Source: Cenococcum geophilum 1.58 (Eukaryota; Ascomycota; Dothideomycetes; Gloniales; Gloniaceae). Taken from it: a DNA stretch of 64,000 nt. Made by a program: the position numbers and the translations under genes. The stretch spans positions 1,732,746-1,796,745 of the forward strand of contig KV748194.1 of assembly GCA_001692895.1 (NCBI GenBank), written 5' to 3'. Below are positions 15,770 through 58,124 of this stretch, piece after piece. Every line of letters begins with the position of its first letter. Position 1 is the stretch's first letter. The notes below the pieces were generated by a model. It was not told the DNA's origin and did not search any database. It was given only the letters and a program-made list of their open reading frames with translations.

Positions 15770-15783
15770 GTACTCCCCCTTTA
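15770..15783 (-). promoter_or_regulatory. Polypurine tract of Gypsy element 1
   Basis: On the minus strand AAAGGGGGAGTAC directly precedes the 3' LTR. This is the expected primer site for plus-strand synthesis and fixes the orientation of the element. Confidence 0.85.
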
Positions 15784-20411: not shown

Positions 20412-20458
20412 ACGTAGGACCCTAGGAAGCGAGACACCCCCCTAAGCGAGACACTCTT
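20412..20458 (+). repeat. Left TIR of the giant element (3' end in captain orientation)
   Basis: ACGTAGGACCCTAGGAAGCG... containing two spaced copies of GCGAGACAC around a C-run. It differs from the right TIR at two positions, both transitions. Confidence 0.95.
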
Positions 20459-20727
20459 AGCCTAACTTATAACTTTAATAACTTTAGTAATATTATTCTT
20501 AAATAAAATATAAAATATATTTATATAAACTACTATATTAGTAAAATAATACTTAGGCTAAAAAATAAAAATATTATATATTTTTTACTGCAATAAAATT
20601 ATTTTAAAAAGGCTATATATATTATACTATATTATAGTAATTTCTAAACTTAAGGTTACATATTAATATTTATATATATTAATTATATTTTTAATATATT
20701 ATAATAGTTTGTTAATTACAAATATAA
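20459..20727. other. AT-rich subterminal region, left end
   Basis: About 270 bp of almost pure A/T inside the left TIR, ending ...GTTAATTACAAATATAA. The same word AATTACAAATATAA begins the AT-rich tract at the other end (57113). Non-coding. Confidence 0.7.
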
Positions 20728-21660
20728 CCCGCGAAGCCCTACTGCACGCGTCCACGTCGCCGCGGGTGGAAACATCATCTGGAATCCGATTCCTCTTAAT
20801 GGCCAAGTGCAGAGGCGATGGTAGGGAGCCGTCGCAGCAGCGCGCTGTTGTGGCGACTCTGTGGTGTTGAGCTCGCGACGCGTACATCGCCCTCAGCAAC
20901 ACCAGGAGCCTCACTGCCTCCGCTTGGAGCTCTTGTCTTACCATCTAGGGAGGCCCATCAAGGGATACTGGGATACGAAAACCACCCGATGTACGACTAC
21001 CTGGCTCGTAGCCAGGCCCGAAACTGGCCTTATCATCAGCCAGTCGACGTGGACGCGTCCTAGTCGTACAACAGGACACCCTTGGGCTTGCACCAGCTCT
21101 GAGATCGCAAGACGAGGGCGTAGGGAAACCCTTTTTTATAAGAACTTGTTAAGGTTAACGCGTCGCAGATACCTTATACGAAACTTGTTAAGGCCCCAAG
21201 GCCACCGCGAAGAACTTGTTAAGGCCCTGCCTAGAGAACTCGTTAAGGCCCCTCCACAAGGGCCTATCTGGTACACCCAGGTGACTCAGAAGAGGGTCTT
21301 AATAGGCATGGTACGCGCGACCTGGGCGACAGACGCGACAGCAACGCGACGGCGACGCGACGGCGACCAGACGGCTCGACGAGGTGGAAACACGGGTAAA
21401 GCTCTAGGCAGCGGAAACACAGGCCAGCTTCGACGGCCCCATGCGGTCGACCTACGGCCGACTTACAGGTGACTCACAGGAGGGTCTTAATAGGCGTGGT
21501 GCACGCAACCTGACGCATATATATGGGGAGGCTGTAGGGGAAACACAGGCCAGTCGGACGAGGTCTCGATAGTTAGAGACACAGGCTAGCTTATAAAAGG
21601 GGGGGACACAAGCTTAGTTAGTAGGAGAGGGGGGAGCAGGTCGCCTGGCACGGGACCTAG
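20728..21660. other. GC-rich island not affected by RIP, with internal repeats
   Basis: Composition changes abruptly to GC-rich with normal CpA and TpG. It contains four spaced copies of GAAC(T/C)(T/C)GTTAAGGCC or close variants (about 21142, 21180, 21211, 21237), a CGACG-rich simple stretch (21325-21385), and two 47-bp direct copies of CAGGTGACTCA...GGGTCTTAATAGGC (21278-21324, 21466-21512). Open frames (for example 20861-21472) are long only because GC is high; they are Arg-rich and look like no known protein. Possibly a regulatory or end region of the giant element, or a later insertion. Confidence 0.6.
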
Positions 21661-22559
21661 TCTATAGCCCCCTCCTACAAGACACGGTTGGCCTGTTATA
21701 AGGAGACTCTTACACGCGAAACGGGAACCTCCCGCGGGGCGTAGTGCGTAGTAGCCACTGCTGGCTTTAGGGACCTTACCCCTTAGCTAGGCTCTAACCC
21801 CTAGTGCACCTAGTAGGTAGGCAGGATTACGTCCTAGCTAGAGAGACTACTACGTGGCTCGAGAGAACGGATGCGCGTGTCGGTGTACTAATAGATAGGA
21901 CTGCTTGCTAGGGCAGTACAGCTGCTCGCCAGGGCAGTATGGCTGCTCACTAGGGCAGTACGCTAGTGAGGTACGCTTAAGGAGCAAACAGGAGTTACTT
22001 AGGCGGGAGAGGCTTTGGCTAGGCCTTAACCGTAAAAGGTGCACCTAAGGCTTTCTATATTATAGGATATAGCTATAACGCCCTTATAGGACTACGCCAG
22101 TAGGCACATAAAACGGGAGTTGCGACCCCTACAAATGGCAGCTTATACCCGTGCCGGCGGAAATAATAAAGAAAGGCGTAAAACTAGAGGCTATAGAAGG
22201 CTCCTAAGCCGTGTAAAAGCATACTAACTCTAGGAGGAGACTCTTATATAGACCGCTAGGGGGCGGACTAGTACTTAGGCTAATAAAACCCATTATAAGA
22301 TATCCAAAAGAACTGGTGAGAATCCCTGTGTTATTAGTAGTGGCAGCTAACTGTTTATAGAAAGCCCCTCTAGGCCCTCGTGCTTAGAGGTCTAGGACCG
22401 TTACTAGAAAACTAGGGTAGAGGCTTAGATAAGCAGGTATACTAAACTCTATTATATAACTACCTACCCCGCAAGCGTAGCTAGCGGAACGCCGGCAGAG
22501 TGTAGGCGGAGCGCCGCTACCGTATAGGAGGTCACCAGCACTAAAGGTAGGCAACCACC
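21661..22559. other. Partly RIP-affected DNA between the GC island and the LINE fragment
   Basis: Intermediate composition. A short repeat (CTGCTCGCCAGGGCAGTA-type, three copies at 21902-21962) is visible. No protein recognised; it may include decayed LINE sequence. Confidence 0.4.
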
Positions 22560-22995
22560 TTTATCGCGAAATGGGCAGATTTAGAATGGCGACGACGGTG
22601 GTAGGTAAAGGCTAAAGACCGCACAGAAACTATGTGGAAGGCCCTATAGGGGAAACCTATAATCCTATTATATAAAGGCCTAATAAAAGCAGAGGCTATA
22701 GCACTATTTCTTCTTTATATAGAGGTAATAGGGCTTAATATATAGCTTATATCCGTCAGTGTACTGGCAGTTCTCCTATAGTGCGAATGTGGCTAGATAA
22801 GGCAGATAGTCTACTATATACTATTCTAGTGTCCACACTACTAAAGGGCGGACCTTATAGCAAAATGCGCCTCTAAACGCCTTTAGGATATTTTAAATAA
22901 TAAAGAAAGCGCTTAAGCGGCAGTAAAATAGCTAGTATAGTTAGGTATGTTACCCCAGTTTTAAGTAGTAAAAAATAAGATAGAGACCACGCATT
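22560..22995 (+). pseudogene. Tad-type LINE, 3' end of ORF2 (post-RNase H zinc region)
   Basis: With RIP stops as former Gln/Trp, one frame reads AKWADLEWRRRW, LLYKGLIKAEAIALFLLYIE, IGLNIQL, then CECGQIRQIVYYILFQCPHY and, near the end, LGMLPQF. The pattern (hkgLxkaqs, iG, CxCGxxxxTxxHvLfxCP, GvLpQF) is the C-terminus of Tad/I-clade non-LTR retrotransposons of filamentous fungi. The rest of ORF2 was not found upstream, so the copy seems 5'-truncated, as LINEs often are. Confidence 0.75.
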
Positions 22996-24999
22996 AGGAA
23001 ATGGAGGTTCCTTTATAGGCAAGGCGCGCTCGCTTCCCTACCCTAGTTTGGCCAAGACCCAACCTTAACCTCAACTATAAAAGGCCTTCTCCCTTGCTAC
23101 TTTTACCCTTATGCTTTATCTCCTCTTTTCTTTCCCGCTACCGTGCCACCTTAGACTCTAGCTGTTAGCCGTGAGGCATTTTCCATCCCCTTAGTGTCTA
23201 TACAGGTGCTCTGCCCGCCTTCCCCAATCTCCGCATATTTTATACTAACGATTACCCAGCGCTGTAACTCTTTGGCCCTTTCTATAGGATATATTTATAC
23301 TCTCTTCTAGTGTTAACGCATGCTTTAGTCCTACCGTATTCCTCCTTTCTTCTCTCCTCTCTCCTCTCCTCCCTATGTCCCCTACTAATTAGTGCACCGA
23401 AATAACATTTCCGTTTATCCTCTTCTTTATCTTTACCTCTAGTAGTGTCTTGGACGTGACTATAATATACGACTTAATCCTTGTCGGAATAGCTATAAAT
23501 AGCTGTGCTAAGAACCGCCTAGTAATAGATTATATAGGTTATAGCTACTATAAGCTACGGGACGCGTTAAGCAGTATTATATTACAGCATTATAATAAAG
23601 GCGAAGCTGGACGCCGAAGTAGGTCCTTAGCGAAACTATAGGCTAATGCCAGTTACTTAGCTTAGTTAAAGCTGCGCCGCTAGAAGCTAGAAGCCCTTGC
23701 CCTTTTTAGCGCCTTCTTAACCTAGACCTAGACCTTACCCTTCCCTAATAATTAGAGGATTGTATTATAATCGGAGAAGCTGCCGGGCTTTAGTCTAATC
23801 TAGCCCCCTATTTAGTTAAGGAGGTATAGGTTATATGGAAATATCCTTTATATAGACCTAAGACTTATAAGGCGGAATCTAGGGGTAAACGGCCTATCTA
23901 GTAGCACAGCCTAGCTTTTAGTGGAGCTAGTGTTATAATCTTACTCTTAACTAATAAATACTGGAGAAAAATTCGCGTATTTAACCTCCTAACGGAGACG
24001 GACTTTATACGATAGCTATATTAGCTAAAAGGGCGCAGTAAGATGGATATAGGTGTAATCGCCTAATCTACTCGCGCTATCTGCCCCCTTATATTGTTTA
24101 TAACATCCGGCTATAGGTAAGGGTAAAGTGTAACTAAGGAAGTTCCTTAAATCTAGGGGAGAGATTTAAGGATGCCCTTATTACTTAGAGTGTCTTTTAA
24201 TACTCAGCAGAATTACGGCACGCCCTTTACTTATCTAACCCTAGGAACTATAGTCTCGCAAAGGATCTAGTACGGAAGATCCAGTTTACTGGCATAATTG
24301 GGTTAAAAAAATTGGGTTAAAAAATAGATATATTAGCGCTAGCTCTAACTTTAAGGAATAAAGGTAAAGGTACTTTACCACTAACCTCCTTAATAAGGAG
24401 GCTTGATGCGATGCCCCTGTTAGAGGCTGAATATACTAGGTTAGTTAATTAGGTCTTAATTGCAGTTTCTTAATAGGCGTTAATCTTATAATAGAGTTTA
24501 AGCCTATATATACCTTTATATATTATAAATGGTAATTGCTAATAGAGCGTAGATTATACGTTTTAATTCGCTATTAAGTTAGTAGGGTTATTTTAGTGTA
24601 GATGCTGCGGATATAAGCTAGTGGCAAAGAGGGGACTAGCGTAGACTTAAAAGCCTAGCGTAACCCGTCCTTTAGGGCTATTAAAAAGGCATAAGGTAAT
24701 AATAATTCTAATAATAATAGCGGCAGCAACGGTAGCATCTTCTTAACCCCTTTGTTTTGATTTATAAATTTCACTTAATAATATTAATTTTTACACTATA
24801 CCCCCTAAAAAACTGAAGGCTTCTTAGCATTATGCGATTACGGCTTCTAAGGTAAATGTAAGTAATATACTTAAAAAGAGGATAAAAAAGGGGAGAGTAC
24901 CTTGCTTCCCTCTAAGAGATAATCCTATAAAATATTTAGCCTAATTGCGCTTAGGTAAGTTATTCTATATTACCTTTTTTAAATATTTTACCTAATAAG
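22996..24999 (+). pseudogene. Unidentified protein fossil(s)
   Basis: CT-rich stretch 23080-23380, then frames with protein-like composition under RIP reading: DVTIIYDLILVGIAINSCAK (23450 on), PKTYKAESRGKRPIQ (about 23860), NKYWRKIRVFNLLTETDF (about 23950), and a later piece with CRCCGYKLVAKRGL (about 24600). I do not recognise a family. Start, stop and introns cannot be placed. Confidence 0.35.
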
Positions 25000-26290
25000 G
25001 CACCCGTAGATCTTAAGGCTTTTAATAAGTATAAAGATATTTATAAGAATATAAGTAATAGCTAAGACGCTAGAGGAAGCAATTAAGGTAATTTAGTAAT
25101 TATCCCCTTCTTCTTTTCCTAATAACTATAAATATGTCTAACGGTTAGCAGCGAATCTAATATTTATTAAAGATAATATAGCTGACCTAGACTTGGAACC
25201 TAAAGCTAAAGGGGATAGAGCTAGTAATACTAGCAATAAAGCTAATAAAGTCGGCGATTAACTAGCACCTTATGGGTTAGGTATACACTTCCCCCCTATA
25301 TAATGGCCTTGCTTAACAATTATTAGGTAGCGGAAATAACTGCGGCGATAAGGATAACAAGGATAAGGAGTTACCTTCTTTAGAGGAGCTAGAAGATCTC
25401 TTTAGCGTATCTGCGTATAACCATCTTAAACCTATGGTAGAAGACGTTAATAAAATAGATAGCCTAGCTGAGGGAATTAATATTATAACTGTCCCCTAGG
25501 CTATATAGAAGTTGGAGACCTACGTAGTAACTAACTAAGACTTCTTAATAGCCAATAATATAGATAATATTAGTAGGTTATAGATATTGAAAATATTATT
25601 ACTATAACCTAATAACCATAATATAGACAATCCGCTTATTAGGGAGAAGGGTAATTATAAGAAAGAAAATATAGGAGGCGAATTATCCTTTATACTAAGG
25701 AAGCGGAAGCTTAAGCGGGACAATATTACTAATTATAATTCTAACAACCCTGCTAAAGAGAGTAGTGGGGGTGGCGAGGGTAGTGATAGTCTACGTCCCT
25801 AGAAGTAATAAAGGCCACCTACCTATTATAAAGACTTGTCTTCTAGCCCCCCTATCCCTAACCTTAACTCTTAATACCCGTAAGTTGACTAGTAAGCGGT
25901 ATCCACTCTATATCCCGCTAGCCCTTCGCTTTAAGAGCCTACCCTTCTCTATAGCATTAAACCGCCGTATAACGAGGCTAGCAATTATACTTATAATGAG
26001 GATGAGGACGGTAATAGCAGCGGCGTTACTAATAACTAGAGTAACGTTTTAAACCTAGAGCCTGCTGTAAAGCGTTATACCCGGACTAAAAAAGACAAAA
26101 TTAATAAAGTAAGCTTAGATAATAAATGGAAGATTAATAATATTCTAGGGGAAAAAATAACTAAGTTAGGGCGTAAATATAAGGTGGCTTGGAAGCCTAC
26201 CTAGGTTTATAAGAGCGGGCTTTTGAATTCTAATGATATCCTTAAGTCTTACTAAAGATGCGTTCGGCAAGCTAAAGCTAGATTATTATA
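25000..26290 (+). pseudogene. Fossil protein with acidic low-complexity part and chromodomain-like end
   Basis: A Ser/Asn/Asp/Glu-rich region (for example YNEDEDGNSSGVTNN, about 25990) is followed in the same frame by KWKINNILGEKITKLGRKYK and VAWKPTQVY (26124-26215), then NSNDILKSYQR. The hydrophobic spacing matches a chromodomain (xWxVExILxxRxxxxxxxYLVKWkxx). Chromodomains bind methylated histone tails and also end some retrotransposon integrases; no integrase was seen upstream, so a free cargo protein is possible. Broken by RIP stops. Confidence 0.5.
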
Positions 26291-29044
26291 GGTGTACTCT
26301 TTTTCTAAAGTTGTGAAAGTAAAGGGCAGGGTTGCCGTATAGAAAAGATAGGGCTAGTAGCTTAGGCGTATTCTTATATTTCGGTTAGTCCTGCGGAAAT
26401 AAAAAGCCGGGGTTTATATTTAGTGGTCCAATTATTTAAGTGCATTTTCTTAAAGCAGTGTTGCTATATGCAGCCGTTTTTATCTAAATTTCGCTGCTAA
26501 CTTATCTGTGTTATATATATCTAATTAAAACGGAGCCTTATAAGTTGTAAGACTTATTATATTACTGGGCATTATAGCACCTATTTATTTATATTACAAA
26601 TCCTCTCTTTTACCATTAATATACTTAAGAATTCGTTAAATTATAAACTTCTTTATACTTAAAATGTGCTAATCTACTAAGATTACCGTCTAATATAAAA
26701 AGTGCTAGAAGAGACTAAGATATTCCTTAAAGATAAATCGCATTGTCTCCTACCCTAGTGCTATTGCATAAGGTAGGTAAGCGTATCCTAATCTAATACC
26801 TATAATATAAAGTACAGCGCAGTTTAGGAGCTCGCTAGCAACTAGAGATTGTCCAGTATATCCTAAATAAAGGATGGTTAGTATATTATACTATATATAA
26901 GGATAGTAAGACTAATGGACTTATAAAGTATAAAACTTACCTTTATTAACGCTAATAACGCCTAAGAAATAGGTAAAGTATAAATCTGGATAGAGAAGCC
27001 TTTAGATTTTTAAGCTAAAGATAAGATTTCGTAAATGTTAAAAGGAAAGCCTTAAGAGTATAGAGGAAATGCCGCGGCGCTGTTACTAGGGATGGATTCC
27101 GTAAACCTATAAATAAGTTTAGATAGTTAAAATTCCTAGTTTTATAAATATACCTTACTTATCCATTTCTTTAATAACGTTATCTATATAGTTATATTTG
27201 CCGTTTTAATAGCCTTTAATGATGACTCTAAAGGCCCCTAGGGACTTTAATTCGGGAAATATTCCTTATTTATAACGATTTTCTATATTATCGTTAAAAA
27301 GCTTATAAAAGGTAATATAATGTATTAAGATATAATAACAAGCCGATCTAAAGGCAAAAATTTCGTCCTTTTAAGGCGTGCTTAGATATGGAGCTTAGGC
27401 TTAAATAAAGTATAAAATGAGAAGAGAAAACCTATTAATTAATAAACTAGCGAAGTTAATTAGCTTTATATTTAAATGTTTATCTAAAAGAATGTTATGG
27501 TATAAAATATTACCGTATATAACATATCTGGAGTAAATATATTTAAGAACGTCTGCAAGCTATAAAATCTAACGTATTTATAAAATTTGATTAATATTAT
27601 TACTTCTATCCTAAAGAAACCTATAGAGCTAGCTGTTTGGAGCGCGTTCTAAACATATTACTATATAGTTATCCTTCTAGAAAAGTTCGCTGCTATAGTA
27701 TTATAAGAGTCTATTATATTAACCGAGTCTCTTATAGATCTCCTTTTTAACTTTAATAAAGTGTTAAGAATTCGCATTATTTGGAGCTTTAATAACCTCG
27801 TTTCGAAGTTTATCGCAATATATAGTGCCTAAAATTCCCTAGCCGATAAGATTCTCATAGCTATAGCTAGGGGGTAGCACTACGATGAGGTCTATAAGTG
27901 TTGAAGTAGTAAAGGGCTTTAAAGGGGTAGCAAAATCCCGGTGTCTGGCTAACTAATCTATTATTTACCCTAGATTTTAGACGCTATTTTTAGACGAGAT
28001 TAGTCTTTATAGTAGATGCACCAACCCTAGGTCCTCCGTCTAAGCTATACTAAGTCTTATTTATTCTAAACTTCGTCTTAAAAATATAATAACGAAAATG
28101 TTTTATAGGACTCTACATTCCTTAATAGTCTATATAAAATTTTCTAATTATTTTTATGCACCTACAAAACATTCCTTTATATAATTGGATAGTAGTATTT
28201 CCGTAGCCTCTAATATATAGCACCCTTAATTTAGCAGTAAGTGAGTTAGCTTACTTACCCCCATAGCCTAAGCTTTCTAGCTATCTATATAATCTATTCT
28301 TTATTCCGTTGCTCTGCTATATATTCCTTAAGTACTTATTTAAAGGCTTCTCTTTTAAATTTCGCCTCTTGCTCTATATTGCAATTAGTTTAAAAAATTA
28401 TATTATTAAAGGATATATACTTAGACAGTAGCGTAGAACCGTAAGTTTATTAGGAAGCTTCTTATAGGCTTTATTAGAAATATTATACGCACTAACTGCG
28501 TACTTAATACCTTTTTTGTAAATCGTATTATAAAGGATCTCTAAACTTAATATAGTGCGGTTACTAAGAGGCATTACAATATAAATAAGCACAGAGTGAT
28601 TGCTATCGGTCGTGCGAACGCTTTTATTAAAGTTAGCAGTAAGGACTTAAAATCTTACTGCTATAGGGGCGGCTTTAAGAGTTATAAGAGCGGCTATAAG
28701 AGTATCCTTAGGATCGGGAACCTCCCTAAGAAGATGTGATATGGTAAGTAATAAGAATGTCAGCTCTAAAGGTCTAGACTTAGTAGTCTATTAATGTATT
28801 AGCCGATAAAACAATAGTATACGCTATGCTATGTGCATATTAAAGACTGGTTAAAGGTTAAGTATGCTATATATAGCTAATATCTTGCTAGAATAATAAG
28901 GGCATATATAGGTCCAAACCCAGTACGCCAAATATATTAAAAGGTGGCGTTAGTAACTTAATACGGATATATAATTATGTATAGCGAAGGTTAGTAGAGG
29001 GCTAACTGTAATATAGTTTAACCCTAATTATTTAAAAGTAGTAA
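26291..29044. other. RIP-degraded cargo DNA, no family recognised
   Basis: Protein-like traces on the plus strand (for example EYRGNAAALLLGMDSVNL at about 27060) but no family I can name. No intact frame. It may belong to one or two large former genes. Confidence 0.3.
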
Positions 29045-29265
29045 AAGTATATATAGGCCCAAAATTGGAGGCGCTGATTAACCTAGAAAGTAAGAACGGA
29101 ACACTAATTACCTGTAAAAAAAATTTATTAGTAGGCCACTATAGATATAAAGGCGTTCTAGTAGCTGAGCTAGTAAGCCCTAGAGTGCTAAATTATACTA
29201 ATATCCTCTTAACTCTAAGCTAAGTAATAGGCTTAAGGTATGGGGCTATATATAGGGGCTTAGTT
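29045..29265 (+). repeat. Dispersed direct repeat, copy 1
   Basis: Starts AAAGTATATATAGGCCCAAA and runs to GGGCTTAGTT. It matches 50159-50375 over about 220 bp in the same orientation; differences are mostly C/T and G/A. Confidence 0.85.
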
Positions 29266-31849
29266 CTAGTGCTAATTAATACGCAGAAGCTAGCACGTTT
29301 TAGATTAATAAGTAAGAGAGTAAGTAGTATTTAGGGCTTTCTTAGATTAGTAGTTTACCCTATAGATTACAGCTTAGACTTTAAAATATAAAAGTCTAAC
29401 TATTTAAGAGGGGTAAAGTAAATGCGCTACACTCTGGCTCGTGCTTGGGTGTATATTCCCCTAATTACCCTAGTTACCTATCTATAATAAAACCTATAGA
29501 TATTTAAACCGTCATTTATTAAGGCTTTATCGCATAACTAGGAGTAATTAGCTAAGTTATAGAGCGCTAGTGTGTCCCCCGCTTCTAGCCCTTAAAAATT
29601 TAGTATACTTCTAGTATAAAAGTTTTATATAATAATAAGAGACTCTATATAAGGCCTTCCCTCCTAAAAATAAANGAAAACNATAGTCTGGTTTTATGTN
29701 ATAAGGTATAGAGCTANAGANGCGTTTAGTNGCTTTAATNGAGTGNATCTTAACCTTAGCTATATAAGGCAATTTTAGATAATACTACGTGCCTTTAAAG
29801 GAGGAGCTATACCTTAGCCGAGTTTTCTAAGGAAGTTTAAAAGCAGTAAAAGGCTTCAAGCTTTAACAAAGTCTATATATAGCTACTACCTAGGAAAAAA
29901 ATTCCTCCTAAATAACTTAATAGTTCCTTATATATACCTCTTACAGCCTTAGCTTTTCTACAGCCTCCCTCTCTAAGTCGCCAAGCTCTAGCATCTAGGA
30001 TATAAAGTCTCCCCACTCTTGCTTAAGATATATATATTTAAGGTATAACTAAAGTATATAGCGATTATCTCCGAGGAAAACCTTATCCGGCAAAAAGTTA
30101 TCCATAGCTTTAACCTTCTTAGGTAGAAAGATATAATCCTACTATAGGCTATATACCTTAGATTAAAGGCCCTTATCTAGCGGGGGATTATCTGTAGCTT
30201 TAAAATTCTTAAATAGAAAGGTCTCGCCTTCTTTCCGCGCTTCGTAGGTTATGCTAACGGAATAGCTAATATAAATTTTAAAACTATTAAGCTAGTATTA
30301 GCCTAAGAAGCAACTAAGATAACTAAGAACTAACCCATTCCTCCTATAATTAGTTTTAGTATAGGAGGATTTAGGGTTTAATATCGTGGCTTCCTCTAAG
30401 TTATTGGGGCTAATGGGTTGGTCGGGGTACTTAAGGTTCAAATATCTCCGTATAGCTTTCTCCAAGTCACTAGGGCTAATAGGTATATTATAAGATGTCG
30501 CGTTATACTATTAGTATTTGATATAAAGCGACTAAGCTTGTAGTAAAACGACGGCAATGTTCGTAACATATTCTATAAGAGAGTATCCCTATTTATATTA
30601 GTAGAGGTTACTAGAGTGTTACTATAGTAGCTTACCGAAAGGAATAGATATATATTAATAAATGTAAAGTAAATGCCAGAATATGGTATAAGAATAATTG
30701 TAGCGCATAAGAGCTATAATACTTTTAACCTTCTATGTTTTCTTACTATCTAGGTAGAAGTAGTAAGAGTTATACCTAATAATATATTTACTAAGAGACC
30801 ACCTAAAAAAGCTAATAAACGCCCTATTATTTAGTGTTGTAGGAAGAATACTAGTACGAAGCCGGAAATTAGGAGTAAAAAGGCAAGTATAGTAATGCTG
30901 GTAATGACTGGGAAATCCTTATTAAAAATGGTTTTTAAAATATTTATATAGAATCTCTATAAGAATAGAGCCTAATTTTTAGTTAGTAATTTACTTTAAG
31001 AGGCTATANNTATAAACCTTAATGGCTANTCTAGTATACTAGGANAGCTCNAATAATANNTATAANAACTTAGCNNAAATANNAGAGATNTTTTTAAGCT
31101 AGTAATAAAGGGAGACTCTAAAAGTAGTTTGGAGAGAGAGGAAGTAAAAAATTATTTAAAAGCGGAGAGAACGCTATAAGGTAGTTGGTAAACGAAGTTA
31201 TAAAAGCACTACTTAACTAAGAATAAGTAAATAAATAAACTTAGCGCCAATAAATGCTATAATAGGAAGTTTATATATTGTTTTAAAAAGTAGGGGTGTC
31301 TTGCTAATAAAGAGGTTAACTAAAGTAAAAAAGGGCAAGAAGGTAACAAGGTAATAAGGCAATAGTGTAATAGGGTAGTAGGGTAATAGGGCGGCTATAA
31401 GGCTAGGTTATAGCCTAATTTCCTTTAACCACCTTTATAGAATATTGTGCCCCTTAATAGTAATCTCTTAGCGATCCTCTAGGAATTTTCTAGGACTCCT
31501 CTGTAACTCCTCTATAACTCCTTTAGGACTCCTATATAACTTATATAGAACTCCTTTATAACTTTAGTGGCGCCTTAGGAAACCAGCCTCCTTAAGCTAA
31601 AAAAAGGTAGCGAGAGTGGCTAGGGTCTTAAGATCAGTTTTAATAGCTGTATCCGTAATACCGCCTTCTTTTATATACGCCTTTTTAGGCCTTAATATCT
31701 CCAAGTACCTCTTTTACTAAGGTATAGGCTTACTTAGCACGCTTTTTATTTCTAGTACTCCCGCCCTAGCGGCTTGTAATTCTCTATTTAATAAGCTTAG
31801 CCCCTATAGCCTGCACGTAATATACTAACGTAACGCGCATTACCTAGAT
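29266..31849. other. RIP-degraded cargo DNA with scattered undetermined bases
   Basis: No gene recognised. Isolated N bases occur at 29675-29746 and 31009-31090. A stretch of ACTCC(T)-type short repeats (31470-31560) is mirrored in inverse orientation at 34830-34920, so this part may be an inverted, diverged relative of that region. Confidence 0.45.
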
Positions 31850-40395: not shown

Positions 40396-40452
40396 AAGGC
40401 CTCTAAGGACCTTTAAAGACTTTTAAAGACCTTTAAAGACCTCTAAAGGCCA
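40396..40452. repeat. Short tandem repeat, ACCTTTAAAG unit
   Basis: Five imperfect 10-13 bp copies (gacctttaaag, gacttttaaag, gacctctaaag). Confidence 0.85.
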
Positions 40453-41935: not shown

Positions 41936-42179
41936 CTCTATTTAGGCGGCATAAGGCTACTTCTAATAGGCTAGGGAGTAGATTGTATATTTTATGGAAA
42001 TATAAAGCCTATATAAGATAGTAGGGTATAGGGACCTGATAATTTGGCGAAAGATTAGGTTATCCGCTTTCCTAGGTTTATTTAGCCCCGGCAACTTACC
42101 CTACGCTATTTTATATACGTTTTAACTAAAGCTACTACCTAGCCTTAGCCGCCTAAATCCCCGCAAAACTTTACTCGTG

Positions 42180-47400: not shown

Positions 47401-47500
47401 GGCATTATTAGGAGTAGCTATTGGCTAAGCTGTTACTGAATTTAAAAGGCTGACGATCCCTAACGGACGCTATATACCTTAGTAGGGTTTAGAAGCGTTC
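44421..47500. other. RIP-degraded cargo DNA, no family recognised
   Basis: 45600-46900 has weak protein-like traces on both strands but nothing assignable. A short near-duplication with GG(C/T)AAGTCTAT(C/T)TT occurs at 46680-46745. Confidence 0.3.
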
Positions 47501-48420
47501 GCATAAAGTTATAAACTAAAATTAGAAGTTAACAATAACCCCTAATAATGCCTCTTTTAGCAGAAATAGCATTATATAATCTACTTCTAACGCCAATCCT
47601 TTTTGGGGCAAGATACTGCCTAAGCAGTAGACTTATCCTAGCCAGTTAATCTTATATATTAACCCCCCATCTATAGTAAAGGAGCTATTAGTGCTTATAG
47701 GATGGTTTAATTAGTATTCTAGCTAAGCCCTTTATAAGCGCTCCGCCTTATATAGGCGGCAATTAACTCCTATTAATCTGCCTTGCGTTAAGGGAGATCT
47801 TTTACTTAAGGCGCTAAGCAGCTAGTACTTAGAGGTCTATAGACATATTCTATATCCTAGCAGCATCAACCATAACTTCTTAAGTAGTATCCCGCAACCC
47901 TTAAGTACCTATAAGTATACTATCCCTAAATTGCTAGCTACTAAGTGGGCATTTATAGATAGAGAAACTAACTTTAAAGATGACGACAGCGACCTAGAGG
48001 CGTGGACTAGTTGCGAAAGTAACTTTAGTAATAAGGATTAAGAATAGGACGCAGAGACATTATACGGCGAAGAAAATAGTTTTAGTACTAAAGATTAAGA
48101 AATAGGGGCAGACGGTAATAAAGAGGTGTTAAGCGATAAGGCTATATAGGCGACGGTTAAATACAGTGGCCTTAACTTTATAGTCTTAAATCTATAAGTA
48201 AAGGATAAAAATATAAAGAAAAGTTCTAATAAAAGCTGGTAAAAGGGTTAAAACTTTGGCCTTTCTTTATTTAGCCTATCGCGAAATAAAATAATATTTT
48301 ATTATTTCTACTAGAGTCTCTGCCCGCTTAACTTATAGTGAGCTATAAAGCATTTATAATAATCTATGCTTTTACTTAGATAAATTTATTTACTACCTTA
48401 AAAGCGATAAGTAAAGTAAA
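47501..48420 (+). pseudogene. Unidentified acidic protein fossil
   Basis: A continuous protein-like reading under RIP: ELLVLIGWFNQ, DLLLKALSSQYLEVYRHILY, KWAFIDRETNFKDDDSDLEA (about 47945-48005), SNFSNKDQEQDAETLYGEEN, then QATVKYSGLNFIVLN. The acidic, Asp/Ser-rich middle part may be disordered. Family unknown. Confidence 0.4.
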
Positions 48421-48828
48421 TCTATACTAATAACCTAGGATTTTTTAAATTTCTTATGGACCTGGGACGTATGCTACCTTAGTAACTATTAGTCGTATTT
48501 AAGACTACGGTACTTATCGATTTATATCTTAAGGATATAAACATATTATTTTATAGTGTTTTCTTTTTATTTAAATTATTTCTCTACTTATAGTATATAG
48601 CGGTTATTTACCTATCCTAGTGTGGTGGGGAGGGGTAGTTGGGTTATATAAGGGGGCTTAGACTTATGGCTACGCTTATAGGGCTATTTATATATAAACT
48701 TCTCTAAGTATATATAAGGGGGTTTTAAGTCGTTGTAAAGTCTATATATATGGGAACTTCTTTAATATTTCTAGATCTGGGACTTATATATTTCTTTTTT
48801 TTATAGTTCTGGTATTTTCCTAATATTT

Positions 48829-49540
48829 GCTTCCTATTTACATACTAGGCGTTAATAGAGGGCGCTAGGTCAGATTACCCTGCTTATATAATTACCTAGC
48901 TCGCACGATTACCTAGCTTATACAATTGCCTAGCTTATATGATTACCTAGTTTGCACGATTACCTAGCTTATATAATCGCCTAGCTCGCACAATTACCTA
49001 GTTTATACAATTACTTAGCTCGCACGATTACCTAGCTCATACGATTACCCGGCTCGCACGATTACCTAGTTTATATAATCGCCTAACTCGCACGATTACC
49101 TAGCTTGTAGGATCTGCTAGCTTCTACAAGCATTTAGCTCGCACGATCGCCTAGCTTGTATAATTACCTAGTTCGCACAATCGCCTAGCTCATACGATTA
49201 CCTAGCTCGTAGGATCTGCCAGCTCCCACGAGTATTTAGCTCGCACGATCGCCTAGCTCGCACGATTACCTAGTTCACATAATCGCCTAGCTTATATAAT
49301 TACCTAGCTCGTAGGATTGCCTAGCTCCTATAAGCACCATACTTATACGGTTACCTAGCTTATATAATTACCTAGCTTATAGGATCTGCTAGCTCCTATA
49401 AGTATCTAGCTTATACAATTACCTAGCTCGTACGATTACCCAGCTCGCATAATTACCCAGCTTGTAGGATCGCCTAGCTCACCTATTAATATCCTATTTG
49501 TATACTAGGCGTTAATTAGAGGACGAATAAAAGTTATATT
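48829..49540. repeat. 17-bp minisatellite (about 35 units) between 30-bp direct repeats
   Basis: From about 48885 to 49482 the unit ATTACCTAGCTCGCACG and variants (atcgcctagcttatata, atctgctagcttctaca) repeat with a 17-bp period. There are hints of higher-order order (…GTAGGATCTGC...AAGCATTTAGCTCG... recurs). Immediately outside are two direct copies of TACTAGGCGTTAAT (within 48834-48865 and 49501-49532). Non-coding. Confidence 0.95.
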
Positions 49541-50158
49541 ATATATTTAGCTATAATAGGGGAGATTATCTATTAAGCACCGCTATACTATTACTAAGTT
49601 ATATCTAGGAGCTTTTTAAGGCCTATAGTATATCCAAATTCTATGTCTTAATGTCTCCTATCCTTCCTATAATATTTTCTTAGTAAGCATCTCTTATTAA
49701 GTCTCACCCCGATTAAGGTTAAGTAGCATCTCCTTTAAATATTAAACTTTCTCTAGATTGTTATAAGCGTTATAGTAATTAATAAGGTTTTGGAAAGCCT
49801 TATCTTCTTTATTATCCGTTATTAACCTATAGTCTTTAAAATAAGAGTAAATAATGCCGCGTTGTCTTTTAAATTCCTTCTTCTAGTCGTCGCTGATTTC
49901 ACTCTATTTTAGCATTAGAAGCTAGATTAGCTGCAATATATAAAGCTATAAAAACTTATATATAAAGACTGGCAATCGTTCTATATATTATATACGGAAC
50001 ATATTGCTGGGGACACGATTTTGTGGATGTTAGAAACGCTAGGGGAGTGTTCTTAGAGCTAAGTATACGACTATCTTTAGTTGACCGTATGCCGTATCCT
50101 CGACCTTAACTCGGACAAATTAAAAGACTAAAAATGTTAAAGAGTGAAGAGATTTGTG
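49541..50158. other. RIP-degraded DNA, nothing recognised
   Basis: AT-rich, no assignable frame. Confidence 0.3.
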
Positions 50159-50375
50159 CGAAAGTATATATAGGTCTAAAATTAGGGGCGTTAAATAACC
50201 TAGAAAACGAGAACGAAACGCTAATTACTTGCAAAAAAATTTATCAGCGGGCCATTGCGGGCATAGAGGCGTTTAGATAGCTAAGCTAGTAAGTACTAGA
50301 GTGCTAGATTATACTAATATCCTCTTAAGTCTAAGCTAAGTAATAGGCTTAAAGTATAGGGCTGTATACTAGGGC
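50159..50375 (+). repeat. Dispersed direct repeat, copy 2
   Basis: Same orientation as 29045-29265, 21 kb away. Shared words include CTAATTAC(C/T)TG(C/T)AAAAAAA and TATACTAATATCCTCTTAA. Confidence 0.85.
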
Positions 50376-52450
50376 TTAGTTTCGGTCCTAGTTATGTGTA
50401 GGAGCTAGATATATATCTTATATTAACAAATAGGAGGGAGTTAAGTCGTGGGGCATATGCCATTTCGTCTGCGACGCGTCTTATAGCCTATATATTAATC
50501 GCCAGTTTACATCATTTGTATAGTATGCGAGATGGGTGCTATAGGGTATATAGCAGCAAAACGAGGTATATTGTCTGCGTACGCACCTTGGCTGTAACCG
50601 TATATATTAACGTTAGAGATTAATATAAACGTTTTCTATCTAGCTCCTTATCTCCCTATTAACCCTTTAAAAGCCTAATCTCTTTAACAAAGTCCGGTAT
50701 AAATGAGCCTCCTTAAGTAAGAAGACTTGGAAGTGGGGGCGCTGCTAGCGTCAATATATAAACTACTTAGAAAACTAAAACAACCTTTCTAAGCGACGCC
50801 CCTTTACTCTTATGTCTTGCAGGGCCTATAATATATAGGTCACTGGTCTATATCTCTTACAGGATTATATTACTTAGTTAATACCTAGGGTTAATCAGTT
50901 GATTCGCTTACTTCTTCCCTAGACGCTGTATTTAATAAAGCTAAAACCTAAGTTAGTATAAGTGTTCTAACTATAATATAACAAAACTAATAATAGGCTT
51001 TCCTAACGGCTTGTGCCATACACTAATTAAGGACTTTAGTAGCCACCTAGGGTATACTCTTAGCCACTAGCAGCTTGTTTAAACGCTCTAAAAGCTCCTT
51101 TTATTTATCTATAGGAACCTTAAACTAAGTAGAGTGTGTTAGATATAATAAGCGAAGTCGTTTAGCTTCTTCCTATATAAGTATCTGCCAATCTTTATTA
51201 CTAAGAGTCGAGGCTATACTTATATCCCTGCTTACCAAGAACCGCTTCTATTAAGTTTTAGAATGTCCGGTAATAGCCTATATATTACTAGCTTTGGACT
51301 TAGCGGTAAGACTTATTATGCGTAGTGGCGTTAAAATAAGAAGTTGGTATTACTGCGCGGAGTGCTATTTACTAGAGTGGGGCTATTGACCGCGTTAGCT
51401 CTGTTAACCCTATTAACCCTATTAACTATATTAACTATATTAACTATATTAACCTAATCAACCGCTAGCGATATAAAACTGGCTAACGCTACTAGTCTAT
51501 GCTTTTACCTTCTCCTAATATAGCTAATAAAGTTATAGATATAACAATAGGTCGGTCTGCATAACAATACTATATTAGTGCCTCTTTGGGTACGCTAACC
51601 CCGCGTTTGCCTCTATTTACTGGTTCTCTTTATATTCTAATAGGCTTATCCTATAGGTAGCTCTGTATCGCTCTCTTTATCGTAAGCCTATAACAATTAC
51701 CCTATTTTATTATAAGATACTAGCCTCCTCGGCATTGCGTCCCTAAAGAGTTAAATTAATTACTTAAACTAGACAGATAGGAGATTTTTAGGATAAGTCA
51801 ATACGAGCCTTAATTAAGGTTCTATACCCTAAAAGCCTTTCCTACTAGGAACTAATCGGATTCTTCCCTATATTTCTTAGAGAATTGACTTAATTCTAAA
51901 TCTAAGTAGGTGCTTTAATATTGCTTTGTTAATGGCTAACCATATTAAGCCCGGGTTTTATTTACCATTACGAAATTTAGGGCTTACTAGCAAAGTTATA
52001 AGGCCTATAGGCTAACTAGGCTGAAATACAGTTACCTTCTTTCTTTTACTGTAATGCACGCTCCTTTACCTATAGCCACCGCATACGTTTATATAGTGTT
52101 TATTTATTGCCTTATAATTTTCCGTACTTTTACTAGATATAGATAGTGGGGTTTTTCTAGTTATATAACTGGCTTTATCTAGGTAAAGGGGTAGCGGAAA
52201 ATGCTTGGTATGCATATAAGCTAAATATTAATTTAAAACTTTAGAAGTTATATTAGTCCTTAGTTAAGCGACTAATGTTTAAAGCTCTAACTAATTAACT
52301 AAATCCGTCGCAGATTAGACGAAGCTAATAATGACTTCTTAATGTATATATAGAGGCTCTAGAGCCATATTTAATAAAGTAGAGTTCTTGTTCTTGATTG
52401 TCCTGTTTGACACCAAATTATACCCTTAAACATTACTTAAAACGCAGTTG
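50376..52450. other. RIP-degraded cargo DNA with a 9-bp simple repeat
   Basis: Minus-strand traces (for example KELLERLNKLLVAKSIPQVA at about 51080) look like protein but are not assignable. At 51398-51460 a 9-bp repeat, TTAACCCTA grading into TTAACTATA, has about seven units; it resembles but is not the fungal telomere repeat. Confidence 0.4.
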
Positions 52451-53600
52451 AAACTAAAACTAAAAAAGAAAACTAATAAAATATATTATCCAAAAATGTT
52501 TTACTTAGCTTAGCGCAGCTTATAGACAGCAAGAAATATAGCGACTTAAAACTTATATGCCAGGGGCTGAAGTTTAAAGTCTATAAAGCGATTATATATA
52601 CCTAATCTCCTATACTTACAGCTGTATATAATAGAGGCTTTTAGGTAAAAGCTAACTAAATATTTAGTAAAATTAACCCTAACTAGGAACTAACTAACGG
52701 GTAGAAGGCGGCAACTAATATTATAAATATTAACGAGTTCGATTCCGGCACCGTTAAGAGAATAATCTAATTTATATATAAGAGGGACTATAATAATGGT
52801 AAGGAGGAGCAAGGATCTAATATTATAAGTATAGAAAAGCTCGGCTAAGGTAAGGGATATATTTGTACGCTAATCTAATTTATCTATACTTAAGCTTCAA
52901 TCTATAGAATTAGAGGTAGCGTAATTTAATAACGCCGATACCTCATCGCCATCTAAACTAGATAGTAGTGGTGGCGATAATAGAGATATAACGATATGGC
53001 TGACAACGGCTTATATTATACTTTGCCACGTCTATGTTAATGTAATTGCCGATTATTACAATATACTATAGCTAAAAGAGCTTGCGAATATAAAAATCTA
53101 ATATATTTTAGGAACTAGCTGGTCCGCAGACGGGTTTCCTAATGTTATTAAAAATGTCTTTAGCCTAATAGGCGACTTAGTATTGTATAATATAATTACC
53201 TTAATAGCGGCCGAGTATATTAAAGAGCTTATTAAACTTAAGGACTTTATAGGGCTAGATATTATAAGTAATTTCGCTATCAGCATTATACGGACGGCGG
53301 TTACCGCATTTAAGGACATAGAGGAAAATTTTATATAAAAACTTTAAGCTGTCCAATCTTAGCTATAATAAATAGAATCACTGCTTTAATCCGCTAAGGC
53401 GAGGTACGCCGCGGCTAAGCGCAAAAGCAAAAACATTAATAACTATCTTAATACCCTCTATACAACTAGGACCTATTATAATATCGGTTATAAAGCTAAG
53501 TTTATATGTTATATTAAGGACAGCAGTTATTTATCTAACCCTAATTACTCTTATATACTTCGTTGTAAAAGGTGCGAGCGTTATATATAAGTAAAGATAT
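52451..53600 (+). pseudogene. Fossil BTB/POZ domain protein
   Basis: Reads VLLSLAQLIDSKKYSDLKLI, FKVYKAIIYTQSPILTAVYN, GFQVKAN (52498-52660), then NEFDSGTVKRIIQFIYKRDY (about 52735-52795). This is the BTB/POZ dimerisation fold pattern (ySDlxlxxgxxxFxVHkxvlxxxSpxfxxaxxggFxE...dpxxvxxmlxFlYtgdY). The downstream part HVYVNVIADYYNI, LKELANIKI, SWSADGFPNVIKNVFSLIGD continues like fungal BTB proteins. Broken by RIP stops. Fungal BTB proteins of this type are often substrate adaptors or of unknown role. Cargo of the giant element. Confidence 0.82.
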
Positions 53601-53756
53601 ATAGCTTAGGAGATCGGCTTAGGTAGGAAGTTATTATATAATACTTCTCTTCCTTTCTCCGTTCGGGTTAATCTAAGAAATTTAAATATATATCTTGTCT
53701 ATAGTCGGTCCGTTAGATATTATATAGTAACTATATTATCCATCTCCTATCAGCCT

Positions 53757-53842
53757 CCCCTTACCTCACCCCTTACCCCACTATTCATCTCATTCTTTAC
53801 CTTACCCTTACCCTTACCTCACCCATTACCCCTTGCCCCCCT
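53757..53842. repeat. C/T-rich simple repeat, (CCTTACC)n-like
   Basis: Irregular CCTTACC / CCTCACC / CCATTACC units. It has little TpA and stands out from the flanking AT-rich DNA; it sits between the BTB fossil and the end of the captain fossil. Confidence 0.8.
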
Positions 53843-53979
53843 AGACGAATTACAAAATCCTAGTTATTATATCTATTCTACTAAATACTAGAATAGGATT
53901 AGATAACAATAGACTAAAATAAAATAAAAAGTAGTAAAGAATAATAAGATAAACGCGAAATAACTAGGAAAAGGTCCTA

Positions 53980-56361
53980 TATATACTAAGCGTATAGTTC
54001 TAAAGATGCATTTTATACTTAAGGGTTACTTTATAAACATTATATTTGATCTCACCCTACTATAAGAGTTTAGAGAGATACACTTATTAGAAATGCTTTA
54101 TAAGAGCAGTTAGAGTATAGAACCTATATATGCGCTTACTAATTAGTAGCTTTTAGTTCCCAAGGCAGATAAAGCATATCTTTAGTCTTTTCTCCTTATA
54201 TAAGGATAACTTTGCACTCTCTAGCGCTTTAGCCGCTTCTAAAATCTTAGTATCTTCTTCAATCTTAACTTGGCTAAGGGCGACACCTACCCTAAACTAT
54301 CTCTAGTAATAACTTGGCTAATATGCTCTACCTTCCTCAACATTATAGTAATCTACGACTACATTAATAGCATCATTGCGTCTATATATTTTATCTTCTA
54401 GTGATGTGCCAGGTAGCGTTATAATCACTTTAATAAGGCGTTTATATTCGGCCGATCTATTATTATTAGATTCTAAGGTTGCTTTAATATCCTCACTAAA
54501 TATAACTCCGGAAAGTTGCCGCTTAATATTAATTACAGCTTATTCGTTGTCCTAATTCTTCTTAATATTTTCTAATAGCGCATTTCTTTAACGTTGCCTT
54601 TTATTTATAATTTCTCGGCTAAGCTTTTAGTATTCTGTGCTTCTTACGGTTTTACGCTTAAGGCTAAGCTTTAGCTTATTTTAAACTTTAATTAAGGAAC
54701 AAATATGCGGGTTCTCGTTTACCGATAAGGATTATTTTATTATTAGGTACTATGGCTACCATAGGTCAATTAATCGGCTCATTTGGTATACTGCTTTTAT
54801 TAACTTTTCTTAAGGCTCTAAGCCTTAAACGATTGCTTATATATCTACGTCAACACGCCGCAAAAGGTAGTGCTTTAGGAACGTTTAAGCGTCGGCGTAC
54901 TATATCATCAGGTTCCGGAGGGCATCAGTTATATTACCTAAGTAGTAAAGATATTAGAAATGTCTTAGTAGAACCAGCTCTATATAATAGAACTTACTAT
55001 TCTTATTAAATGCCTTGCCTACGCCGTAATGGAGACTATATAGGCGCATAACCTGCCAAAATCCCGTAATTATGCTAAGGTCCTTAATTTATGGTAAAAG
55101 AGTTAAGTACTATAAAGGTTGGTTGGGTAAGACCTTATAGCTATAGAAAGCTTTAATTAATCGCCGAAATATAGGGATATTATCTAGGTCTGGATAGAGT
55201 AGTAGTAGTAACTAGTTACGCCTAGGCTTAATATATAGCTTAGTAAGCTGTTCCGCGGACGTCAGGTTAGGGGCTTTAAAAGCTTAGTCGGTAAAGAGGA
55301 GGCCTAAGAAAAAGACATAAGGGTTAAGAATAAGTGAAGGGTTAAAGATAATCTTAGGAATTGGGAAAGTATTACTAGTTCTCTATAAGCATAAGGTAAG
55401 AGGAATAGGGTAGAAAGATAATATACGCTTCCTTTATACTAAGATATTCCTTAGTAAATTTAAATGTAAACTTAAGCACGATGTTATGGGGACCGCCCTT
55501 TGGGTCCTAAATAAGTGTAACTATTATATATTGGTAGTATAGGTTTAGAAGAGCTTTAGGTTAGCTTACAGTGCAAAGACTTAGTTATATTAAGAAATGC
55601 ACTTGTATCCGATATCGTCTAACTATATATCGCTTCCTTATTGTGACTAAGTTAGTCTTAAGGACTAGGGCGAGATCCTTTGCGTCTATAATAGTCTTTT
55701 CTCACTTTTTCTTGCTTAGACTATGTTTCTCCGCCAGTTTCCAAAGTACCTAAGAAAGATATCTTAGCTCTGCCTTACCTTACTAGGTTAAAGGATTAAC
55801 TAGGAATATAATCACCTTATATATCTAGCGGTTTAGTTTACTAGCAATTTTCCCTCTAATCGCTCTCTTATATATAAGGCGATAGTACTTCTAGTATAGG
55901 CCAAGCGAGCTAGAAACCTTCGTCCCGCACTATTTCCTACTACCTTTCCCTCGTTTCTAGTTTAGGGACTAGTTAAAGAAGCTATAAAGGAGCCAAAGCA
56001 AGAGGACTTGGTACGTTTTCTTAGGGTCTTTCCCTATATAGGTGCAGTATCTAGAAATTGTTAGCTCTCTGCCAAGTTAGGCCTAAAAGAAAGCCGCTAA
56101 ATAGGTTATTACTTACTAATTCTAGTGTTCTTTAATGCGGTTAAGGAGAGCTATAGTAGCATCGGCGTAGTTCTGCGTCGTAAAATTGGATTCCTTAAAC
56201 TCTTCTAACTATTTAAGGTAATATTCTAGTAGATAGTTTTAATCCTTATAAAGCCATACTTAAGCAGACGCTTCGCAAGCATTTTTAGATTTAGTAGTGC
56301 TATCGGTATTACTATTAGGGACAGTTAGTTCTATCCGGTAGCTGTTACCGTCGCTGTCCAT
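53980..56361 (-). pseudogene. Fossil DUF3435 tyrosine recombinase (Starship captain)
   Basis: Captains cut and insert Starship giant transposons. Reading the minus strand with RIP stops as former Gln/Trp gives, in order: MDSDGNSYR start (56361), LLEYYLKQLEEFKESNFTTQ, NYADATIALLNRIKEH, LGRELTISRYCTYIGKDPKK, VLWKLAEKHSLSKK, RYRIQVHFLIQL, PKALLNLYYQ, DPKGGPHNIVLKFTFKFTKE, NTFPIPKIIFNPSL, VFFLGLLFTDQAFKAPNLTS, GFWQVMRLYSLHYGVGKAFN, DAQTFLKHYLLRRVDVD (tyrosine box). The tail QRQRNALLENIKK, INIKRQLSGVIFSEDIKATL, VIITLPGTSLED and ICFICLGN...KMHLQN is the coiled and zinc-finger end seen in many DUF3435 ('FluG domain') proteins. About 790 codons, the normal length. It starts 1.76 kb inside the right TIR. 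No longer functional. Confidence 0.9.
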
Positions 56362-57089
56362 ATCTATATACTTATTGTTAGTAACGCTAGATAATAAGCT
56401 GCGATTTAATAATTAAGCGCGCCATATTTTAGGGAGCTAGAAAAGAACTTAGGGTAGTAACGGCGGAAAGGATATAGAGAGTAATATAGGGTTAAGGAGA
56501 TAGGAGGGTAAAGAATAAGAGAAACGGGGCCTAGGTTAAACGGATTAGAGGTAAGAGCTATAAAGTATATATAGGTTTAGCGCTAGGCGCATAGAAGGGT
56601 TATACTTCTAGATAAACTAGTCTGCCCGTAAAAAACGGGGCATAGGCTAGGTAAGTGAGAGGCTTAACATTAGACCAGCAAGTAAGAGGCTTAAGGCGGC
56701 GGGGAGTTTTAGTAATATAACCTCCAAAAACGGTGATAGAACCCTCTAAAACCGGCAGTTAGATCTCTATTTTCTTTTTTAATGGAGTAAATGTAATAGA
56801 TATAGAGGATATAAGTAGATACTAGCCCTTTTAAAGCCTAGAGGATTAGTAAAAGAATAAGGGTAAAAGGATAAGAAAAAAAGGGGGTAGAGTAAGATTA
56901 TCTGTAAAGCGTAGCTAGTTAGCTTAATATACAGACTTAAAGGCAAGTAGAAGGCGAGCCGCCGGCGCTCTAATGTCGGAACGCTGCTATCTCTCCAGCG
57001 CGGCCTAAGGTAGGGTTTTCTCTAAGTTAAAGTTTTTCCTATAAAAGGTATTAGCCTATGTAGACCTACTAGGGGGACTAGGACGGGCG
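56362..57089. other. Upstream region of the captain fossil
   Basis: RIP-degraded with some GC-rich patches; no gene seen. It would have held the captain promoter. Confidence 0.4.
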
Positions 57090-58077
57090 GTAAATTAAAT
57101 TTATTATTATTAATTACAAATATAATAATAATATCTATATAAAAAATTATTATAATTGTTTTTATTATAATTATAGTTTAATTGTTTTTATATATTATTT
57201 TTTAAACATTTTTTATTTTTATAATATATATATTAAGTAAGATTAGTTAATAAAAGCATGGTTTATAAAAACTACTAATTTTTAACATAATTAATATAAT
57301 TTTTATTGTATTTTTTATAGATTAAATATTAAATAAAGTTTTATTTTTATTTTTATAACGTTACTTATATATTATTATAACATTATATAATCAAAATACT
57401 TGAAAATATTATGTAAAATATTACTAAAATATATAAGTATTTCAAATATTTTATAAATATTATTATTTATATATCTATAATAGTAATATAATACTATTAT
57501 TATTATCATTATTTATTGTTTATATATATTGTTGTTATTTAAAAATACTATTTTATTAATATTTAATACTTATTATACTATTACACTATTTTATAATTAC
57601 TTAAATTCTTTATAATTTATATTATATATATATATGTATTACACTATTATTATGCTATTATTATAATTTTTTATCATTATACATATTATTGCGCTATTGT
57701 TTGGCGGTAAAAAATATTATTAATAATTATAAGTATAAGTATAATATATAAGTATATTTTATAAATTTATACTTACTTAAATATTAACTAAAATTTTATA
57801 TTAATAGTATTATTATATGTTAATTTTATATACAGAAATAATTTATTATATAGGTTTAAATATATCAAAAATATAAAAAGCATAAAAATATAAACTTTTA
57901 AGTATTAAATAGTTTATTTATTACTAATTTTAGTATAAACTTAGCACATTTATTAAAATTTAAATATATATATAATTTTATTATTTTATTTCATATATTT
58001 ATTTTATATATATTAAATTATTATATTGCAAAGTTTTTTTATTAAATTATTTATTAAGGCGGTGTTATTTAAAGATA
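57090..58077. other. Extreme AT-rich subterminal tract, right end
   Basis: Nearly 1 kb of A/T with almost no G or C, non-coding, ending just inside the right TIR. It mirrors the shorter AT tract at the left end and shares AATTACAAATATAA with it. Confidence 0.75.
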
Positions 58078-58124
58078 AAGAGCGTCTCGCTTGGGGGGGT
58101 GTCTCGCTTCCTAGGGTCCTACGT
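58078..58124 (-). repeat. Right TIR of the giant element (5' end in captain orientation)
   Basis: Inverse copy of 20412-20458. It contains the two GTCTCGCTT words around a G-run and ends at GGTCCTACGT, followed by TA. Confidence 0.95.

Follow-up and report, generated by a model that had tools for sequence, protein, structure and literature searches.

The stretch of DNA analyzed here, hereafter the window, comprises 64,000 nucleotides of the ectomycorrhizal fungus Cenococcum geophilum 1.58 (contig KV748194.1; C19:1732746-1796745) and holds a nest of mobile elements. Very probably, positions 22968 to 56790 are the relic of a Starship, a giant fungal transposon whose DUF3435 tyrosine recombinase is called the captain; it lies within a retroposon likely mobilized by a long interspersed nuclear element (LINE), which in turn interrupts a small transposon with terminal inverted repeats (TIRs) that sits in a Gypsy element. 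Such nests mislead boundary calls, since every layer presents convincing ends of its own, and an earlier note made from the letters of this DNA had described a single Starship of 37.7 kb with 47-bp TIRs. We compared each layer with its other copies in the assembly (177 Mb, 162 contigs), so that all copy comparisons rest on one assembly of one strain.

The Starship’s own ends emerged from these comparisons. On the captain side, all 11 other fetched captain copies share a 5′ end at about 56790, and not at 58124, beyond which their sequences are unrelated; on the opposite side, the 3′ end at about 22952-22969 is common to all 39 other scored copies (40 scored out of 660 candidates). These ends lie inward of the TIRs by 2.6 kb on the left and 1.3 kb on the right, which reduces the claimed 37.7 kb to 33.8 kb, a length within the range of about 20 to 700 kb given for Starships in the excerpted text of PMC12153272. 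Sixteen copies, the window’s included, could be aligned at both ends, and all of them carry TTAC on both sides: read on the captain strand, each consists of flank, TTAC, TCCATTAAAAAAG (with C/T variants), the interior, CTTATTTT (with a C/T variant), TTAC, and flank. As these 16 copies have 15 different flank pairs, the Starship is found at different sites. The site without the Starship is present in three of three fetched retroposon copies (L057, L058, and L059). Just inside the ends, an 18-bp subterminal inverted repeat was found whose similarity was reached by none of 500 shuffles. For comparison, the same excerpts report direct repeats of 2 to 12 bp for Starships and TIRs in 18 of 20 elements.

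Table. Features of the nested elements, in window coordinates except for the two junction loci
Feature	Position	Strand	Remarks
Starship relic, 33,823 bp with both TTAC repeats counted	22968..56790	-	5′ end 56790, 3′ end 22968
5′ direct repeat TTAC (captain strand)	56787..56790	-	
3′ direct repeat TTAC (captain strand)	22968..22971	-	outside: TACTTAAA, giving TTAC(N7)A
Subterminal inverted repeat, 5′ arm, 18 bp	56764..56781	-	16/18 identical to 3′ arm
Subterminal inverted repeat, 3′ arm, 18 bp	22969..22986	+	16/18 identical to 5′ arm
Captain relic, DUF3435 tyrosine recombinase with C2H2-like C-terminal end	54003..56361	-	masked translation, homologue alignment
Cargo relic, fungal protein kinase PF17667	42519..43742	-	E 5.7e-75, stops masked
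Possible kinase fragment	27452..27733	-	PF00069 26.6 bits vs 31.7, PF07714 22.4 vs 23.1, both under curated cut-offs
TIR element, left part	20410..20727	+	TA, TIR 20412-20458, AT-rich body
TIR element, right part	57111..58126	+	AT-rich body, TIR 58078-58124, TA
Likely retroposon, 5′ unit, abundant repeat	20728..22466	+	506 candidates, 40 scored
Likely retroposon, 3′ LINE-like unit, left of Starship	22467..22967	+	joined to 56791-57110 in L057, L058, L059
Likely retroposon, 3′ LINE-like unit, right of Starship, TTA tail	56791..57110	+	adjoins left piece in L057-L059
15-bp repeat TAATTACAAATATAA, taken as target-site duplication, left copy	20713..20727	+	
15-bp repeat, taken as target-site duplication, right copy	57111..57125	+	single copy in L016
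Gypsy, part left of nest	15400..20411	-	pol domains; 15400-15699 placed as long terminal repeat
Gypsy, part right of nest	58127..59294	-	58995-59294 placed as other long terminal repeat
Head-to-tail junction locus L080	C52:608560-608720		
Head-to-tail junction locus L081	C3:4543480-4543640		

To characterize the target, we used 15 sites, among them the window’s own and with C7 omitted because its flanks match those of C25; the TTAC on the 3′ side formed part of the string by which the target place was located. Beyond it, T occupies position +1 in 14 sites, and A occupies +6 in 13, +7 in 13, and +8 in 11 (binomial p of 1e-4, 1e-4, and 0.005 for the three A positions, with A making up 37% of the flanks). 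The resulting consensus, TTACTnnnTAA(A), fits the motif TTAC(N7)A described for Hephaestus Starships in the excerpts of PMC12153272.

The captain had been correctly spotted in the earlier note. The DUF3435 profile PF11917 matches two minus-strand frames at about 54348-55680 once stops are masked (E 7.4e-73 and 2.6e-16), and this relic is the first gene found inside the 5′ (right) end, the stretch toward that end having been scanned to 56500. It carries many stops and at least one frame change, and its limits (54003 and 56361) are our reading of the masked translation. The gene points inwards; its read-through apparently starts some 0.43 kb from the 5′ end, the start codon being a guess. Among the 31 homologues found, the best is a 734-aa Coniosporium protein with 47% identity over 98% of the searched piece, and Lepidopterella and Lophium, fungi closely related to Cenococcum, are among the best named relatives; this best homologue had no match among the solved structures in the PDB. 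Two conserved tyrosine motifs, LHYG and KHYL, are retained in the relic. Judging from their spacing, our guess is that their tyrosines correspond to residues 381 and 416 named for HhpA in the excerpted text of PMC12506042.

The rest of the interior was searched by masked six-frame Pfam scans of 20728-48690 and 49300-56500. Apart from the two kinase matches listed in the Table, they returned one sub-threshold BTB match, and four of the scans, one lying partly within the retroposon, had no match at E 0.01. All 21 candidate places for the segment at 32.5-34 kb were scored; 20 of them, window included, are near full length, and one is partial. At least 40 places, window included, hold the kinase segment, and at least 40 hold the segment at 46-47.5 kb, again with the window (40 scored out of 169 and 176 candidates, respectively), so that the interior is partly shared with sequence outside the 20-copy set. 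The interior also contains an array of 17-bp repeats (48805-49552) and two direct repeats of 235 bp that are about 81-82% identical and lie 21.1 kb from each other (29044-29278 and 50161-50394).

The inverted ends that had been assigned to the Starship do exist, as two arms of 49 nt (20410-20458 and 58078-58126) with 96% identity, and they lie exactly at the break in the Gypsy element: a query of the two Gypsy flanks joined at the TA (411 nt, with the junction following base 225) had 616 candidate places, and all 40 that were scored match across the junction. Searching the genome with the left TIR end yielded 41 matches (40 of 44 candidates scored), and we compared 11 TIR-bounded elements, the window’s included. 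In seven of them (the window, L009, L010, L011, L015, L016, and the C13 element) an AT-rich body aligns to the 1.36-kb copy L016, the longer members of this set carrying inserts, while the other four (L017 to L020) have a different common body of about 2.1 kb, interrupted in L020; an open reading frame of L019 holds a DDE_1 match (E 3.5e-8). Since its TIRs are shared with these DDE_1-bearing 2.1-kb elements, the AT-rich element reads as a non-autonomous TIR element, presumably of the Fot1/pogo-like kind within DDE_1. The TA adjoins the TIR at 21 of the 22 ends, the only one without it being an end of L015, and thus the supposed TA junction of the Starship belongs to the TIR element. As a side observation, the left TIR end reads ACGTCAAGCACCGGG instead of ACGTAGGACCC in L015, L016, and the C13 element (L012 to L014), which makes the two TIR ends of these copies differ.

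The TIRs do exist, coincide precisely with the break in the Gypsy element, and enclose a captain, which would be in keeping with a single Starship of 37.7 kb, inserted directly in the Gypsy element with a TA flank and ending in the 47-bp TIRs. However, the same TIRs elsewhere enclose the 1.36-kb AT-rich body and also the 2.1-kb DDE_1 elements, and the other Starship copies stop at the inner ends described above on either side. We therefore dropped the TIRs as Starship ends and consider this possibility hardly credible. The earlier note had itself named TIRs belonging to two independent small elements as an objection to its proposal; in substance this is what we found, except that both arms belong to one element.

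Between the TIR element and the Starship lies a further layer, bounded at 20728 and 57110 by the 15-bp repeat TAATTACAAATATAA, which we take as a target-site duplication. This repeat corresponds to the overlap of the two TIR-element parts, is single in L016 and, among the copies listed, is aligned unbroken in the C13 element, L010, and L011. The layer itself consists of two units. All 11 fetched copies of the 1.74-kb 5′ unit (L046 to L056) end at 22465-22469 and then diverge into different sequence. The 3′ unit is rejoined in L057, L058, and L059, where 22467-22972 and 56778-57112 adjoin in all three; L059 has an additional 0.44-kb insert farther to the left. L058 shows an upstream reverse transcriptase match that falls just short of its cut-off (E 7.2e-7; 29.5 bits, cut-off 29.6), and none was found in L057 or L059. 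Within the 1 kb examined after the other 5′-unit copies, a tail together with a duplication occurs in L052 (14 bp) and L055 (10 bp), L053 has a 9-bp repeat without a tail, and the other eight copies gave neither. In both L052 and L055, the tail ending the sequence that follows the 5′ unit is A-rich.

Given that the 5′ unit has different 3′ partners in 11 of 11 fetched copies, we discarded a plain LINE broken by the Starship and adopted a chimeric retroposon, likely mobilized by a LINE, as the reading of 20728-22967 plus 56791-57110; the 1.74-kb repeat looks like the WEIRD-like 5′ unit of such chimeras. Alternatively, two unrelated repeats could simply abut here and the 15-bp repeat could be a chance match in AT-rich DNA. 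The two units are indeed also found apart elsewhere, and the 15-bp repeat is AT-rich, but it is single in uninterrupted TIR-element copies exactly at the break, the stretch terminates in a TTA tail, and the combination of tail and duplication recurs in L052 and L055, so that we regard abutting repeats as unlikely. Separately, TAATTACAAATATAA had at one point been taken for the direct repeat of the Starship, because it also fits TTAC(N7)A; the unit ends at about 22466, the Starship ends at 22968 and 56790, and the joined retroposon copies overturned this assignment.

The outermost layer is the Gypsy element. Its domains for reverse transcriptase, RNase H, and integrase lie left of 20409 on the minus strand, and we place two directly repeated stretches of 300 nt (15400-15699 and 58995-59294, 92% identical) as its long terminal repeats (LTRs). 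Copies without the insert were seen for the Starship, retroposon, and Gypsy layers, and from the nest we read that the Gypsy element came first, followed by the TIR element, the chimeric retroposon, and finally the Starship. Some observations concern the Gypsy element and its surroundings only. Most uninterrupted Gypsy copies exceed the joined flanks by 8 bases (419 versus 411); as rows stopping at query base 394 show no difference, the extra bases lie beyond this base, in the right flank near window 58300, and not at the junction. An AT-rich array of 23-25-bp repeats lies beside the Gypsy LTR (15832-16277). Further right, 58735-59163 and 63569-64000 are inverted repeats with a plus-strand reverse transcriptase match between them, and 58735-64000 is probably a second LTR element of the Gypsy’s kind in the opposite orientation. 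Finally, a perfect 53-bp tandem duplication occupies 8720-8825.

Dinucleotide indices show repeat-induced point mutation (RIP) across the nest: TpA/ApT is 1.62 and (CpA+TpG)/(ApC+GpT) is 0.52 over 23300-57110, versus 0.75 and 1.25 in window 1-2000. Of the RIP-killed Starship proposed earlier, a RIP-degraded Starship with a DUF3435 captain stands, whereas its ends, length, repeats, and target had been misassigned to the outer TIR element.

Starships are a class already known, and the most interesting part of this one is its unusual copy number. The captain stretch at 55.0-56.5 kb had 97 candidates, and all 40 that were scored matched, the window included. Using end patterns written from the copy alignments, with up to 2 mismatches tolerated, we found each of the two ends, 5′ and 3′, 68 times across the assembly, and the reversed control patterns had no match. 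The 5′ ends were then each assigned the closest same-strand 3′ end up to 200 kb away, a rule under which nested copies can be mispaired. This gave 44 pairs, 11 of them 33.0-34.1 kb long (the window’s among them) and 26 of them 30-45 kb long; for two more 5′ ends, the 3′ end in question already belonged to another pair. Across the 66 pairwise comparisons of 12 captain copies over 3.3 kb, transitions average 8.4% and transversions 0.23%, a ratio of 37. In the columns with both C and T, T precedes A in 1476 of 1899 cases, and the surviving C of the same columns does so in 786 of 2822. This pattern suggests that nearly identical copies arose in a burst and that each of them then underwent RIP; the burst would have been short, because transversions between the twelve captain copies average just 0.23%. 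With 68 matches per end, the Starship likely multiplied in a burst before being silenced, again likely, by a genome defence.

Several points weigh against this picture as a whole. The retroposon is weaker than the other layers, with a tail plus duplication within 1 kb in only 2 of 11 other 5′-unit copies; the cargo is thin, as most masked scans of the interior were empty and one kinase relic is clear; the +8 base of the target is other than A in 4 of 15 sites; and mobility is read from a single assembly. Moreover, the pairing rule left 24 of the 68 5′ ends without a 3′ end to themselves, and many copies may accordingly be broken or nested. The Starship copies C25 (L041/L065) and C7 (L072/L078) share flanks on both sides, either because both occupy one site in a repeat or because the locus was duplicated. 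A shared repeat or duplication therefore explains at least one pair. If the end matches came mainly from segmental duplication or recombination of repeat-rich DNA, and not from Starship transposition, such common flanks and unpaired ends would be expected, but the other 14 of 16 aligned copies lie in different flanks, each meeting the Starship at TTAC. We thus hold duplication to be a very improbable source of most matches and retain transposition.

At two places, C3:4543541-4543588 and C52:608614-608661, a 3′ end runs directly into a 5′ end with a single TTAC between them. From these junctions and the target site, a mechanism can be sketched. When intact, the captain would have used TTAC for both cutting and joining the element, probably via a circle with its ends meeting at one TTAC; the circle is proposed because the two head-to-tail junctions show the same one-TTAC arrangement. 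In the window, the captain likely placed the Starship at a TTAC(N7)A site within the retroposon repeat. The Starship may then have spread in a short burst, and RIP would have mutated the copies independently; given RIP and a captain filled with stops, the window copy should be immobile. Alternatively, the head-to-tail junctions might arise without a joined-end circle, when a second copy lands on a copy already in place, at its TTAC end. The Starship’s own 5′ end, TTACTCCATTAA, is a fair match to the target motif, the joint looks the same after integration of a circle as after such a landing, and nothing observed speaks against landing, which we rate only slightly below an even call. The reading in which a single Starship lineage moved to dozens of places within a short burst, landing also head to tail at its own TTAC end, and was then extinguished by RIP in one copy after another, seems to us evenly balanced between true and false.

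If this is true, the Starship behaves as a genome-expanding repeat, and tyrosine-recombinase Starships have an amplifying mode and not only rare single moves. At 68 times 33.8 kb, the family would amount to about 2.3 Mb, or 1.3% of the assembly, an illustration that assumes full length, as directly seen only in the 11 paired units. The many copies bear on how a recombinase expected to move DNA conservatively can raise copy number, and those bounded by TTAC make the target site (here with 15 sites) and the end-to-end joint open to comparison.

In the open-access papers searched, as far as their excerpts extend, we found neither a Starship for Cenococcum nor a Starship family with dozens of copies per genome, and the words “DUF3435,” “repeat-induced,” and “RIP” are absent from the main text of the C. 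geophilum genome paper (PMC5023957; word search). The nearest statements in the excerpted sources concern a “proliferation” of Starships in Gaeumannomyces GtB strains (PMC11905480) and several Verticillium genomes that hold more than one Starship (PMC12289983).

Among known systems, as far as the excerpted papers describe them, the window Starship resembles Hephaestus in its DUF3435 captain first inside the 5′ end, its TTAC direct repeat, a target consistent with TTAC(N7)A, and short inverted repeats near the ends (PMC12153272). It differs in being degraded by RIP and in having dozens of end matches in one genome, and its membership in the Hephaestus family is putative. RIP-degraded “derelict” Starships (PMC11623301) and a RIP-degraded Starship of Gaeumannomyces GtA (PMC11905480) share with it the element-wide RIP and presumed immobility; however, those are single elements, whereas dozens of related copies occur in one assembly here. 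For the layer around the Starship, and not for the Starship itself, the MINE/WEIRD chimeric retroelements of Magnaporthe may offer a parallel by description: a 5′ unit is fused to varied 3′ partners, and one tripartite chimera has 14-bp direct repeats, compared with 15 bp around the window copy (PMC2104539). Finally, ToxTA and ToxhAT in Sanctuary and Horizon likewise combine a TA-flanked TIR element with a Starship in one nest (PMC12506042, PMC9594970), but there the TIR element lies inside the Starship, whereas in the window the Starship lies inside the TIR element, with the retroposon between them.

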